This document shows positions 38,937 through 49,400 of a stretch of DNA of 64,000 nt, piece after piece (position 1 is the stretch's first letter; each line of letters begins with the position of its first letter). The notes below the pieces were generated by a model, which did not search any database, was not told the DNA's origin, and saw only the letters and a list, made by a program, of their open reading frames with translations. The DNA comes from Symmetrospora coprosmae (Eukaryota > Basidiomycota > Cystobasidiomycetes > Symmetrosporaceae): positions 248,001-312,000 of the forward strand of contig VUYT01000001.1 of NCBI GenBank assembly GCA_008802785.1. Direction: 5' to 3'. A program made the position numbers and the translations under genes.

Positions 38937-40277
38937 ATGTTCTCGGAAGACTTCCTGGATGCCCTGGCTTGCGACGAGTCGGACACTGAGGTCGACGAGT
39001 GAGTATGCGCTTTTTACTGCGTGTATCGCCCAATTCACCAGCTGACAAGCACCCCGTCTTGCGCTTTCAGGCCGGTGCCTTTCAGCGAGCCAATCGCTCC
39101 AGTCAGAGTCAACAGTGGCACGAAGCTGCTCGACCTCCCTGACGAGCTGCTCGCGCCCATTTTCCAGCTCTTTGCGCCCATCGTGCGCTTCCAGAGACCC
39201 GTTCCGCCTCCACCACACGGGATCGCCGCATACGAGGTCGTGCATTTGGGCGATCGCGCCGCATTATGCAGCCTCGCCCAAGTGTCTCGCCGAATCCACA
39301 ACCTGGCTACGCCGATCCTATACCGCGATCTGGTCTGCCTCAAATCAGACTACCTCAAGCCGCATCAGAAACCACACGAGTTCGCTGCAGGCCTGCTATA
39401 CTGCCTCAGTCTCGCCCTCCAGCGCTCCGACACGAGCGCTTTCGCGACTGCGCGTTCGGTCAGCGTACGCTATCATGCCCCTATCTCAGCGCGGGGCGCG
39501 GGCGTCGGCGACGATGTTCGCAGGCTCATTGCCGCGTGCTCGGGACTGCGAATCTTGCAGCTGCGTGGGCTCGAAGCGCTCCGAATCCTAGATATCACTG
39601 GCATCCCGCTTGCCCTGCCAGAGCTGGATCGACTCGACATCACAGCAGGCCCATCTGCAAAGACCGCCTCGGCGCCAGTCAACTTCGCTGCAGGATTACA
39701 GCTTGCGGCCATCCGTACCCTTGTCCTGAGTAGCTGTGAAATCAGCTCTGAGGCATTCCTGCGCCATAGCGGCATGTGGCTGGGCTTGGAGACGCTCGCC
39801 CTCATGGCTCCGGTATCGACCGAAGACCTTCGCATCGATTTTTCTAGATTGCCGGCTCTTCGATTCCTTATCCTGGACGGAGCAGCGCACCCCGACCTGA
39901 CAGCTACATCCTCGTTGCTGGATGGGCAGCGTCCGCAGGTCATGGAGCTCGGCGTCAGCCTCTACAACGTCGAAGACGGTTGGGGTATCCTGAATGCAGT
40001 CACGCGCGGCGCCAATGACTTCGGAAAGCTAGAGACGATCAACCTCAAGCTCGATGCCATTCAGAATCGTCTAGGCTTTTCAGAAAGCATCAACCGTGAC
40101 GAACGGATGAGAAGGGAGGGTCTCGCATATCGATTGTCGCAGTTCCTGGACAAGCTCCTCGAGGCGAGCCAGACTTTTCCGTTCCGCCTTCAGCCGCAGC
40201 AATACCCCATGGACTACGACAGGTATCTCCAGACTGCACGCCAGGTCTACAATGCTCCCTGGGGTAGATGTTATTGA
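38937..40277 (+). CDS. F-box protein
   Basis: Predicted 422 residues from exons 38937-38998 and 39071-40277 (phase 2). A short acidic start, MFSEDFLDALACDESDTEVD, precedes the F-box LLDLPDELLAPIFQLFAP, which would bind Skp1 in an SCF ubiquitin ligase. It continues AALCSLAQVSRRIHNLATPI and LYRDLVCL, the usual F-box end. The rest is Leu-rich with irregular repeats such as LRILQLRGLEALRILDITGI and LPELDRLDI, resembling divergent leucine-rich repeats of basidiomycete F-box proteins. Such families are large and variable, so no substrate can be named. It converges with the repeat-precursor gene, 95 bp between stops. Confidence 0.82.
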
Positions 40278-40372: not shown

Positions 40373-41061
40373 CTATAGACCAAGCCCCTCCTGCAGTGTT
40401 CCTACGTTCTCGACAGTAGAATCGAGCGTGTCCTTAACGCCTTCCACCTCACTGGCGACGATCTCGTTGATGGCATCGAGCAGGCCGCGTTTGCCGAGAC
40501 CGAGACCTTCCTCGAGGGTGCCGACCTACGGGACGCTCTGCCTTTAGCGCTGTATTCGGTGACTAGTGCTTTGCCCTTATAGCTCACATTCTCTACCGTT
40601 GAGTCAAGAGTATCCTTGAGGCCCTCAACCTCGCTCTCGACAATATCGTTGACGGCGTCGAGGAGGCCGTACCGCTTGCGAAGGCCCAGACCCTCCTGTA
40701 GTGTGCCGACATTCTCCACAGTCGAGTCGAGCGTGTCTTTGATACCTTCGACTTCGTTCGCGACAATCTCGTTGACAGCGTCAAGCAGTCCTCGTCGACC
40801 GAGACCGAGGCCTTCTTGAAGGGTCCCGACGTTTTCGACCGTGGAGTCTAGAGTGTCCTTGACGCCCTCGACTGAAGAGTCGCACGCGCGGCTAAGGTGA
40901 TCAGTACTGATGTCGGATTGCAGAAGGGCCGGAGCCGGCTTACCCTCATTGGCGACTATTTCGTTGATGGCGTCGAGAAGACCCGGTCGCGCCACCGGTG
41001 CAGCGGCACTGAACCCGATGGCAAGGGAGCAGAGCGCTGCAAGGACAGCTGAAGTGCGCAT
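40373..41061 (-). CDS. Secreted kexin-processed repeat peptide precursor (KEP/Rep1-like)
   Basis: Predicted 208 residues from exons 41061-40588 and 40525-40373 (phase 0). Residues 1-21 form a signal peptide: MRTSAVLAALCSLAIGFSAA. Four units follow, each beginning GLLDA and ending EGLGL: residues 27-90, 91-130, 131-171 and 172-208. Units are divided by GRR, RKR and GKR, which are Kex2 cleavage sites; the last unit ends at the stop codon. Unit 1 carries an extra 24-residue stretch with the only Cys after the signal peptide. Each core has about 37 residues and is strongly acidic (unit 2: 8 acidic, 1 Lys). Established parallels are fungal KEP precursors, including Ustilago Rep1, whose peptides coat aerial hyphae. 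Function here is unknown; surface, signalling or host-interaction roles are all possible. Confidence 0.85.
40376..40983 (-). repeat. Four tandem 37-residue coding repeats
   Basis: Repeat units in transcript order: 40983-40792, 40791-40672, 40671-40588 continuing at 40525-40487, and 40486-40376. All encode the block VEG(V/I/L)KDTLDSTVENVGTL. Unit 1 is longer because of a 24-codon insertion; unit 3 is interrupted by the intron. Confidence 0.9.
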
Positions 41062-41986: not shown

Positions 41987-43641
41987 CTACGCTGCCTTGG
42001 CTGCTGCGCGCTGCTTTGCTGCTTGTGCGATAGCGTGCTCCTTGCCGATGAGATGGCTCGTCGCCTCGACCAAGGCCTGATGCATGAGATGGGTTATTAG
42101 CGGGACCGCACAGCCCGAGGCGACGTGACGTGGACTTACCATGAGCTTGCCAACGTCGTTGCTCCATTCGTTAAGCACCTTGTACGTGCCCTTGTTGACC
42201 TCTCTGAAGTCGACGATCCCGGCAGGCCTGTCGATCTTTGCGTAGACCTGCTTCGCGACGACCATTTTCGCAAGGCTCTGCTCCGTCTCTGCCGCATCGA
42301 GGTCGAGGAGCTGACTGAGGCGCTTCAGCCCCACGCGGGTGTAGTACTTTGCTATTGTGCGAATGTTGTGCTCGACGACGCGCTTGTGCAGCTCTTCGAA
42401 CCGCTTTTCGCCCTGTCCCGCCGTAACCTTCTGCTCAATGTCTCCGTCCACGCCTGCAGAACCGTTGGCGCCAAAGACGCGCGTCTGGCGCAGGCCCGGA
42501 CCGTAGAGCGACTCGATGCGCGGCCACCGTGTCAGCTCGGGTGTGGTGAAGCATTTCGCGAGGCTGAGGCAGTCCGGGAGCTGCTGCAGCTTGTCGTCGT
42601 CGTCCTTGAGTATGCGGTGCAGGAGGTCGTTCTGCTCGTTGTCGTACGGGGCGAGGACGATGAAGAAGATGATGTTGCGCAGGATGGCCTGCCACTTGTC
42701 GTCCGAGTCCTTGATGCTCGGCGTGGCAAATAGCGAGCGGTAATGCTTTGCGACGTCGAGGTACTTGTCCATCTGGAGCGCGTAGAGGATCATGAGGCCG
42801 TAGAACTTGAACTTGAGATCTTCGTTGCTCTCCTCCTCGAGCCACTTCGTGTTGATCTTTTTGCTGACAATCTGGAGCATGTCCCAGTTCTCCTTTGCGC
42901 GCAGCAGGCGCATCTGCTCCAGGATGAATTCGAGCTTTTCACGTCGCTCCATCGAGGCAAATGTCTCAACCTGGAGGTCCTGGAGCAGGTCGGATGCGGC
43001 CGTGATGTCGCCCTCTGTCTCCTTGATGGTAGCCAGCAAGCGGGTCACCCTTGCGCGCGGGACCTCGAGGTAGATCTGGTCAAAGTTTAGAGAGAGCGAA
43101 GACAGAGGTAGAGCAAGCCAATATCAGCTACTCAGCTCTGATGCGCTTGCACGCTGCGGCTCCGGTCATCCAGGGTCTGAATGACGCGTCATTGCCCGTC
43201 GCCATGCCCGGTCTGGATTCGCCGACATTGACCGAAACCCACCTTGCCCTCTGTGACGTCCCTCAGCGTCTCTATGAGCTTGAGCCTGTGCCCCTCCCCC
43301 CTTTCACTCTGGTCGAGCTCATCGAGGTACTCCATTGCCCTGTCTACCATCCTGCGGGTCGCCTCCCTGAGCTGGCCGTGCTTCCTGCTGAGGCCCGACA
43401 GCTGCGAGTTGACGCCGTCCCAGTCGTGTGCATCGTGGAGGACGTCGATGATCTTGACGAGGACGCGCGATGTGCTGCTCAGGTCCGCAGCATTCCTCGC
43501 CTGCTTCTCCAGGACGAGGAGGCGGTCCACTTTCGACGATGACGGTGACGACGCCTCGTCCGCGCCATCCATGGCGGCAATGAGCGCGTCGACCTCCTTC
43601 GTGTAGTCTGCCTCCTGCTTGCGAGGGGCAATGTCCGACAT
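41987..43641 (-). CDS. RPN5: 26S proteasome lid subunit Rpn5 (PSMD12)
   Basis: PCI-domain subunit of the proteasome regulatory-particle lid. Predicted 474 residues from exons 43641-43243, 43075-42140 and 42076-41987, all phase 0. The N-terminal helical repeats include RLLVLEKQARNAADLSSTSR and EYLDELDQSERGEGHRLKLI. Conserved blocks: IYLEVPRARVTRLLATIKE, GDITAASDLLQDLQVETFAS, EFILEQMRLLRAKENWDMLQ, KFYGLMILYALQMDKYLDVA and IIFFIVLAPYDNEQNDLLHR. The PCI region holds IRTIAKYYTRVGLKRLSQLL and KQVYAKIDRPAGIVDF. Length fits the family (about 450). It is divergent from LRP1 across 172 bp. Confidence 0.95.
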
Positions 43642-47157: not shown

Positions 47158-49400
47158 CTACAACACCGTCGACAGCGACAGGAGCACCGACATGGCCACG
47201 AGCGCGGTCGAGCCGCAGCTGGCCAGGCTCGGCGAGCCACCGCTCATAGCGTATGCTGCAGCCAGAGACGCGGGGGTCTGCCCGGAGTCGTCTCCTTCGA
47301 CCTTGCTGCCTTCCTGACCAGCTGCGCTCTTCGTCTTGACCTTCTTGCGCGGTGCGTCTGTGCCGTCTGCATCTGCATCTTCGGAGCTAGCGGCAGCATT
47401 CACTGGCCGCCCGCCACCGCGGCACTGCAGCTGGCACTGCGATGCCAGAGAGGCAGGGTCACTCATGACGCTCGAGCTCGGGCAGGAGGAGGTCAGGACC
47501 GGGTCGACTCGGCAGGTGGTCAGGTTCGTGGGCGCTGATCCAGACGGGAAGCGACCAGCTAGATCGTTCCCGTTGAGCGCCAGGAAGGACAGCGAGGACA
47601 GCTTTGTGACGTCGGGGAAGGAGCCCGTGAGGAGATTGCGTTGTAGATCCCTGCGCAGTCTCCAAACACCATCAGCTGCTGTGCTCAACTGCACTACTTT
47701 GGTGCTTGGCAAGATTGCTCACAACTTGGTCAGTTGCGTGAGACCGGCGACGTCAAAGACCTCCCCTGAAAACTGGTTCCTGGCGGCAGAGAACGTCTGC
47801 AGCTCTGTAAAGGTGGAGACGTCCGGCAAGGTGCAATTGAACTGGTTGTCGTCTAGCGCGATCTTCACGAGCGCGTTGTTGGCCTCAATGTTGAGGTATG
47901 TAAAGGCGTTCCTCGATGCGTACAGCTGCGTGAGGTTGTTTGCTTTGGGAAAGTACAGCATGCCGTCGAGCGTATTGTTGCTGATATGCAGCGAGCTGAG
48001 GGAAGTGCTGTTCTGCAGCGTGGGCGGGATGGTCCCCGTTAGCGCGTTCTGATCCAGATACAGCGAGGCGAGATCCGGCAGCGCGTCGAATTTGTCGGGC
48101 AGCGCGCCGGAGATGGCGTTGCTGGAGATGTTTCTGCAAGTGCGGAAGACTCGTCAGTCTGGGCTTAGGCTCTCAGACCTTCAGCCGAAACTTACAGTCT
48201 GTATAGGGCAGCCAGGTCAAAGACATGAGCGGACAATGCACCAGTAAGGCCGTTGTTCTCGAGATCCAGTGCAGTCACTCTGCCCTCCGAATTGCACGAG
48301 ACGCCGTACGCTGAGCAGCAGCTGCTGCCGTCCTTGTCGCCCCAGCCGTCTTGTGTGACCCAGTCCGCTCCCCCCATATCTTCGTAGACAGCGGTGAGAG
48401 TCTCGCAGTCAGCCCCGCTACTTCCGGACGACCCCGCTCCGGAACGAGCGGGAATCGCTGATGAGCGGGCTTTCTTTGTTGACGAAGCCGTCGAGCTGGG
48501 CTCGTCCTCGTCTTCGGTCGCTGTGGGCTCGTCATCGGCGCCCTTGCTCGATTGGACAGCTTTCACTTTGGCAGTAGGCTTCGCAGTGGTCGTCTCAGCG
48601 TCATCGGTAGCCGTTGAGTCTTCTTCGGGGTTCGGATCTTCGCTAGCTTCGTCAATCTCCGAGCCAGCCTTGGTGCCCTTGACGGCCTTCACCTTTGCCT
48701 TTGGCGCAAACGTCTCTTCCTCGTCCTCTTCGTCCATCGCCTCCTCTTCCTCATCATCTCCTTTGGCGTCTTTCTTGGACGAAGATGAGCTCTTGACGCT
48801 CTTGACTTTCCCCTTCTCCTCTTCCCAGCTGTCAGAGCTGCTTCCTCCGTAATCTCCCTGATCTCCACGCCACGACCCATCGTCATAGCCATTCGCGTCC
48901 TTCCCCTTCTGCTTCCCCTTTCCTTTCTTGCTGCCTCGGCCTCGGCCACTGCCACTGCCGCTCTCGCGCTCGTCATCCTCGTCGTCCGCATCGTCGTCGT
49001 CCTGTTCCTCCCCATCGTCATCGTAGTGGTGACGTCTGCGGGTTAAGATGATGTGCTGGACTGTCGTGAGCTGCGCCGGCAGGTGCCGAGCGTCAAGCTC
49101 ATGGGGGTGTTGGCCCTCCGCCGCGACGGACCTCGGCGAGCTGGAAACTCGCCCAGCTCGCAAGCGGCGCCTGTGGAGGTAGTGCTGCGGCGAGCTGTAC
49201 TCCAGCACAGTGGCAGCTGGAGGCTGCTCAGCTGCAGCACGACGGACCTGTGGCAGGCGGAGGCGCCGGGAAAGGTGCATCGAGGGAGCGTGCCGGTGCG
49301 TCGGGAGGGCTTGCACTACATAGAACGAAGAAAGTAGAAGGAGGTCGAGGAACAGAATCAAATGCACGGCAGTCCGGCTGCTCGTGCCGATGGTCAACAT
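47158..49400 (-). CDS. GPI-anchored cell-surface leucine-rich-repeat protein
   Basis: Predicted 702 residues from exons 49400-48196, 48133-47723 and 47650-47158, phase 2 at both joins. The N-terminal hydrophobic signal includes AVHLILFLDLLLLSSFYVVQ. A long Asp/Glu/Ser/Lys-rich spacer follows, with RGRGSKKGKGKQKGK and repeated (V/A)KAV(K/Q). An LRRNT-like cap, CETLTAVYEDMGGADWVTQD with CCSAYGVSC, resembles plant-type extracellular LRRs. About eight repeats follow, for example LDLENNGLTGAL, LYLDQNALTGTIPPTL and LQRNLLTGSFPDVTKLSSLS. The C-terminal GSTALVAMSVLLSLSTVL is a GPI-attachment-type tail. No kinase or cytosolic domain is seen, so it is not a receptor kinase. Likely cell-wall or surface recognition; the ligand is unknown. 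Confidence 0.85.

Follow-up and report, generated by a model that had tools for sequence, protein, structure and literature searches.

The locus considered here raises two related questions: what kind of protein is made by a small gene that repeats one short peptide four times, and what would such peptides do for the fungus? The window (the whole stretch of DNA that was analysed, 64,000 nucleotides) contains this gene at 40373-41061, and a first-pass annotation from the letters alone had described it as a secreted precursor of kexin-released peptides.

Gene structure and splicing

The peptide-precursor gene is carried by the minus strand, with its ATG at 41061 and the end of its stop codon at 40373; the same interval read on the plus strand has four stops in translation. 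The unspliced genomic frame is interrupted, and the gene is read with two GT-AG introns, one within unit 1 and one within unit 3 of the repeat (Table 1). The spliced precursor has 184 residues: MRTSAVLAALCSLAIGFSAAAPVARP, then four 37-residue units, the last of them directly before the stop.

The splice model was compared with the other models that the locus permits. GT-AG introns of 45-120 nt were enumerated, giving 218 candidates and, from them, 1410 models with two introns and an open frame as far as the stop; exactly one of these 1410 (donors GTAAGC and GTGAGC) yields four 37-residue units. Intron 1 contains a branch-point-like CTGAT, and the pattern that was searched for has no match in intron 2. 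Unspliced, unit 1 is 61 residues long and the frame of unit 4 is lost, to be restored by the removal of intron 2. Since intron 1 is free of stops and a multiple of three in length, its retention could give the 61-residue form of unit 1, and a unit of that length would arise in this way only.

Two metagenomic relatives of the precursor bear on the model. P0002 matches the unspliced reading of the window as far as TVENVS and then diverges. The VS of this string is the donor GTGAGC read through in the window, and the point of divergence appears to be independent support for intron 2. P0001 corresponds to the unspliced reading of the same gene, with two differences over its 256 residues. Its first residue is M where the window has V; the codon there is GTG, probably used as a start and hence given as M. 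The other difference is a Ser/Thr change at codon 40906-40908, inside intron 1.

The first-pass annotation thus had the coordinates right but missed the two introns of this minus-strand gene. The parts that it listed are all seen in the spliced reading: an N-terminal stretch resembling a signal peptide (by eye), and four units running from GLLDA to EGLGL, parted by GRR, RKR and GKR, with the last unit at the stop. Its peptide length of about 37-60 residues came from the unspliced reading and has to be replaced by 37 residues for every spliced unit and 37-39 for the predicted products.

Table 1. Parts of the precursor gene and of the encoded protein, in window coordinates
Feature	Position	Strand	Remark
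Exon 1 (ATG, signal peptide, N-terminal stretch, beginning of unit 1)	40944..41061	-	
Putative signal peptide MRTSAVLAALCSLAIGFSAA	41002..41061	-	cut before AP judged by eye
AP-VA-RP, three X-Pro/X-Ala dipeptides directly ahead of the GLLDA of unit 1	40984..41001	-	read from the sequence
Unit 1 GLLDAINEIVANEVEGVKDTLDSTVENVGTLQEGLGL, interrupted by intron 1	40801..40983	-	
Intron 1, 72 nt, GTAAGC...TTCAG, a multiple of three, without stops	40872..40943	-	inside unit 1
Exon 2 (remainder of unit 1, GRR, unit 2, RKRY, residues 1-27 of unit 3)	40588..40871	-	
Linker GRR, Kex2-type site	40792..40800	-	kept in P0002
Unit 2 GLLDAVNEIVANEVEGIKDTLDSTVENVGTLQEGLGL	40681..40791	-	
Linker RKR + Y, Kex2-type site	40669..40680	-	kept in P0002
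Unit 3 GLLDAVNDIVESEVEGLKDTLDSTVENVGTLEEGLGL, interrupted by intron 2	40496..40668	-	
Intron 2, 62 nt, GTGAGC...CGTAG	40526..40587	-	inside unit 3
Exon 3 (last part of unit 3, GKR, unit 4, stop)	40373..40525	-	
Linker GKR, Kex2-type site	40487..40495	-	
Unit 4 GLLDAINEIVASEVEGVKDTLDSTVENVGTLQEGLGL, stop codon directly after	40376..40486	-	

Predicted processing and precursor class

The N-terminus of the precursor is hydrophobic and, judged by eye, shows an AxA-like cut site. All four units begin with GLLDA and end with EGLGL. Basic residues are few: of the 13 Lys and Arg, seven stand in the linkers and four are single lysines, one in each unit, the others being Arg 2 and Arg 25. Aromatic residues are hardly present at all (one Tyr and one Phe), and the single Cys, residue 11, lies within the signal peptide.

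From this layout a processing route can be proposed. Signal peptidase is predicted to cut before AP; Kex2 would then cleave after GRR, RKR and GKR in the Golgi, and a carboxypeptidase would take off the basic residues that Kex2 leaves. Unit 1 has no dibasic site in front of it, and its likely mature N-terminus is AP-VA-RP-GLLDA. A dipeptidyl peptidase of the Ste13 type could strip AP, VA and RP in turn, in which case unit 1 would also begin at GLLDA. AP-VA-RP is a candidate trimming ladder for such an enzyme, and so short a motif, in surroundings rich in Ala and Pro, could also have arisen by chance. The Tyr of RKRY would remain on the N-terminus of unit 3. The expected products are GLLDA...EGLGLG of 38 residues from unit 1, GLLDA...EGLGL of 37 residues from each of units 2 and 4, and YGLLDA...EGLGLG of 39 residues from unit 3; with four copies per precursor, the dose of one peptide species would be raised.

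Profile searches of the genome give matches for the enzymes in this route. The Kex2 family is represented by a P_proprotein match above the cut-off in two stretches of one locus, with subtilisin-type protease motifs recognised by eye in the neighbouring frames. DPPIV_N, the dipeptidyl-peptidase profile, also has a match above its cut-off, and the adjoining frame is hydrophobic and membrane-anchor-like. S10 carboxypeptidases are found in 21 stretches on five contigs, and Kex1 may be among them.

For the class assignment we use the criteria for Kex2-processed repeat proteins (KEPs) in the relevant parts of PMC7329392 and PMC6339444. A KEP is defined by at least three repeats of at least eight residues between KR, KK, RK or RR, none longer than 100 residues, together with a signal peptide (PMC7329392). 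In this example there are four 37-residue units, with linkers containing RR, RKR and KR; the repeats make up 148 (4 x 37) of 184 residues, where the threshold is at least 15%, and Kex2 in the same organism is indicated by the P_proprotein match. With its signal peptide judged by eye, the precursor is very probably a KEP. This kind of precursor is widespread, 7878 KEPs being reported in 1345 of 1461 strains (PMC7329392), and their functions are described as mostly unknown in the part of PMC9769878 drawn on here.

Evolution of the repeats

Across all six pairs of units, protein identity is 84-97% and DNA identity 73-80%. Nonsynonymous differences are rare (pN 0.012-0.078) and synonymous ones abundant (pS 0.56-0.99, beyond correction in five of the six pairs). 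By identity and by pN against pS, the likeness of the four units is not due to chance.

Codon choice was compared with random draws from local usage, for which 4301 codons from eight open reading frames of the window were available. Units share the same codon in 72 pairs, against 85.0 +/- 8.0 expected, and so few would occur with P 0.060 under local usage or 0.027 under usage within the gene. Units 1 and 2 differ most clearly from expectation (7 same codons against 15.2; P 0.001, uncorrected for six pairs), whereas units 1 and 3 are more alike than average, with 18 against 13.0. It is thus weakly supported that the units were driven apart beyond random at the codon level. Exact DNA matches between units reach 14 nt at most.

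High protein identity combined with codons that resemble random draws points to old units that have not been homogenised and whose likeness is maintained by selection at the peptide level. As far as can be judged from these comparisons, each repeat is constrained to nearly one peptide and the array is not undergoing homogenisation. Where a KEP peptide is conserved, the difference between species is generally the number of repeats, according to the portion of PMC6339444 consulted. An array that has lost its DNA homogeneity might resist such changes in number. No second copy of the gene was found in the 20.05 Mb assembly, where scoring was limited to the best candidates: all matches from two assembly searches (3 and 4) are at this locus.

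Relatives and database comparisons

Comparison of the precursor with about 5.8 billion proteins brought up 4462 candidates, of which two, both ENA sequences, match with E no higher than 10. These are the relatives mentioned above; by their sequences, P0001 is the same gene and P0002 a diverged copy. P0002 retains the linkers GRR and RKRY, the position of GKR being outside the recovered piece, and its complete unit is identical to unit 1 at 35 of 37 residues. No longer relatives were found at E up to 10 among the 8000 candidates that share most words. The search requires shared five-residue words, so that distant relatives can escape it, and introns hide such genes from a protein search when frames are unspliced.

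No named protein matched the precursor in the protein searches, and among PDB sequences there was nothing below E 0.49. Pfam lists 17 families at E up to 10. DUF2525 (PF10733) scores 39.5 bits against a cut-off of 27 for the whole precursor, summed over four stretches, and 13.6 bits, below the cut-off, for unit 1 alone; we judge this a repeat effect. DUF5798 (PF19111) scores 27.1 bits against a cut-off of 27 in one stretch (117-156 of 184, running from unit 3 into unit 4), has no match to unit 1 alone, and was judged a composition effect. Apolipoprotein (21.6 bits, cut-off 90) and the other sub-threshold families were judged to be effects of repeats or composition. NCBIfam gave nine matches, all far under their cut-offs. 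A literature search by topic (KEPs, repellents, candidalysin, Pucciniomycotina, Cystobasidiomycetes/Cystobasidium) rather than by sequence found no paper on this peptide.

The family is real and apparently undescribed, and comes from a known kind of precursor. In this the first-pass annotation is borne out: it had proposed a KEP precursor, an assignment favoured by the architecture, the Kex2-type match in the genome and two linkers kept in the diverged P0002 (GRR and RKRY, the third lying outside the piece found); and it had suspected a new peptide family, with which the lack of any named match within our searches agrees.

Genomic neighbourhood and lineage

The gene for RPN5, a proteasome lid subunit, lies upstream on the same strand (41987-43048, minus), and a gene for an F-box-like protein (25.2 bits, cut-off 24.3) is convergent with the KEP gene at 39021-40277 on the plus strand. 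A search with RPN5 gave 1560 matches. Among the best 120 listed, those from P0020 to P0069 that carry organism names are Pucciniomycotina, at 50-59% identity, and those listed beyond P0069 are other fungi. In a tree of 39 rows (the window and 38 of the 120 listed matches), the window falls in a 14-row clade with support 100/100, beside rows from Pucciniomycotina. Judged by this one gene, RPN5, the fungus would belong to Pucciniomycotina, with rusts and red yeasts among its relatives, and not to the smuts. Cystobasidiomycetes would be a guess at its class, suggested in part by the lack of named close relatives among the listed matches. The 13 partners in the clade (P0003-P0014 and P0019, with P0015-P0018 excluded) are a diverse set that lies inside or beside Pucciniomycotina.

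Two other sequences can be mentioned here. An open reading frame of 402 residues (48192-49400, minus strand) has a hydrophobic N-terminus and a long acidic stretch rich in Ser and Lys; its C-terminal part resembles a leucine-rich-repeat cap by eye, with no Pfam match at 0.001. Elsewhere in the genome, a hydrophobin-like exon (L011, G000:C28:72618-72755, minus strand) scores 24.4 bits against a cut-off of 23, with a profile whose control was positive in 0 of 14 genomes, and the adjoining frame bears a signal peptide. The genome may therefore hold a hydrophobin-like gene besides the KEP gene, and another coat protein is possible.

Peptide structure

Net charge is -7 for units 1, 2 and 4 and -9 for unit 3. 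At 100 degrees the units have hydrophobic moments of 0.309-0.332; depending on the unit, 15 to 37 of 5000 shuffles equal this, and the best angle is 98 degrees in every unit. With a free choice of angle between 60 and 180 degrees, 53 to 145 of 1000 shuffles match the moments of the units; at 160-170 degrees these are 0.05-0.16. Amphipathy is thus clear at the helical angle and moderate across all angles.

Structure prediction (AlphaFold2, single sequence) gives one helix for unit 2 alone, from residue 2 to 35, with a mean pLDDT of 96.1. For the 94-residue stretch encoded by exon 2 it gives three helices (mean pLDDT 73.3); the coil, at 21-24 and 61-65, coincides with the GRR and RKR linkers or adjoins them.

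Repeats of 11 residues occur in synuclein and perilipin helices, and an internal repeat of this length was considered in the units. Each of the four units gives positive values at lags 7, 11 and 18, lag 18 being the best; the probability that any lag does as well is 0.026-0.060, and for lag 11 alone 0.011-0.026. We take this to be ordinary helical periodicity and dropped the internal repeat.

Function of the peptides

The closest functional analogues, by anatomy, would be Rep1 and Hum3 of Ustilago maydis. Their repeats are amphipathic, 34-55 and 31-36 residues long respectively, with Kex2 sites between them, and Rep1 peptides are described as forming surface-active amyloid-like fibrils (PMC4617103, in the part used). 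Like these proteins, ours has a secreted precursor, amphipathic units of similar size and Kex2 sites. Repellents of the Rep1 type consist of amphipathic repeats, about 35-53 residues in length and set at Kex2 sites; the units here have 37 residues and a hydrophobic moment at the helical angle. The differences are also considerable: there are four near-identical units here and 12 and 17 imperfect ones there; the hydrophobin domain of Hum3 is absent, and the precursor has one Cys where a hydrophobin has eight conserved cysteines; the subphylum is another one; and the predicted acidic helix stands in place of the amyloid-like fibril of Rep1. The models show helix, not strand, which would be compatible with later conversion to fibrils. 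The link to Rep1 drawn in the first-pass annotation accordingly holds as an analogy in size, amphipathy and release: no named protein was among the matches to the precursor, one gene puts the fungus in Pucciniomycotina, and the model of an acidic helix contrasts with the amyloid-like fibrils reported for Rep1.

A secreted, surface-active helical coat is the leading reading, held tentatively. Each peptide would fold into one long acidic amphipathic helix, and the helices would adsorb to an interface between the cell surface and air, wax or lipid. Such a coat would work like the Ustilago repellents, by means of helices rather than demonstrated amyloid. Against it stand the net charge of -7 to -9 and the few aromatics, and no sequence relation to known surface peptides was found. 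A wider proposal, which we regard as doubtful, is that the peptides exemplify a helical, acidic, surface-active class, restricted to a lineage in Pucciniomycotina and made by way of KEPs, which does the job of repellents or hydrophobins, with its copies fixed by synonymous divergence that suppresses recombination between repeats. Beside the coat, signalling stays open as an outside chance, and membrane activity as a slight one.

As a signalling precursor, the gene would be laid out like that of an ascomycete alpha-pheromone, the peptides would be receptor ligands, and their conservation would reflect receptor fit. Repeated peptides, Kex2 sites and the possible Ste13 ladder are shared with alpha-pheromone precursors, and four near-identical peptide copies whose synonymous sites are saturated would suit a ligand. 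The resemblance of AP-VA-RP to a Ste13 signature also speaks for it: in the part of PMC6339444 cited, this signature is taken to point to candidate hormone KEPs, and Rep1 is noted to lack it. Nevertheless we think this unlikely: our peptides are longer, the host is a basidiomycete, and the ladder occurs once, before unit 1, whereas alpha-factor precursors have one after each Kex2 site. The mating pheromones of basidiomycetes are moreover a-type, and the 37-39 residues exceed the 9-24 residues of the most abundant KEP class in Dikarya, although yeast-like Basidiomycota are exceptional in having longer KEP peptides (all from PMC6339444). Given that exception, the argument from length weighs little if this fungus is a yeast.

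Typical membrane-lytic peptides differ from the acidic charge found here (-7 to -9, with one basic residue per unit). A lytic or antimicrobial, membrane-active peptide is thus quite unlikely, even though its release as an amphipathic helix from a secreted KEP precursor would recall candidalysin, a 31-residue amphipathic peptide of Candida albicans freed from Ece1 by Kex2 and Kex1 (PMC5784256, in part). By description, Ece1 shares the KEP layout and the trimming by Kex2 and then Kex1; ours is acidic, has four equivalent units and belongs to another phylum, whereas in Ece1 one peptide alone is the toxin (same part of PMC5784256).

The precursor might instead stay whole, as a helical-repeat protein of the wall or matrix with its dibasic linkers serving as flexible joints. 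The predicted helices parted by short coil and the sub-threshold match to the helical repeats of Apolipoprotein would fit; the concentration of basic residues at the linkers (7 of 13), the conservation of two linkers in P0002 and the Kex2-type match in the genome make such a protein very unlikely. Side chains of Cys, Tyr and Trp take part in known cyclisations, and the units have none of these residues. A precursor of a modified (cyclised) RiPP like ustiloxin, which would have the same layout and for which it counts that DUF3328 genes lie near 22% of KEPs (PMC7329392, in part), is extremely improbable, the flanking genes being those for the F-box-like protein and RPN5 and no UstYa/DUF3328 match being found genome-wide (an absence weakly shown, with the control positive in 0 of 14 genomes).

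Implications

Set beside published KEPs, this precursor differs in that no named relative was found in the searches and its repeats are unhomogenised in DNA. It offers a clean, testable KEP, in which one peptide is almost unchanged in four copies despite reshuffled codons; because the peptide is kept while the codons are reshuffled, selection acts on the unit. With introns inside the units, genes of this kind can be missed or misread when fungal DNA is surveyed by reading frame. Experiments on KEPs of Coprinopsis, which included expression in Pichia pastoris, gave no specific function for any peptide examined, according to the part of PMC9769878 cited, which is a warning that peptide function may be hard to detect. 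If the peptides are indeed helical surfactants, basidiomycetes would have a second way of making repellent-like coats, and each peptide would be a short, easily synthesised biosurfactant.
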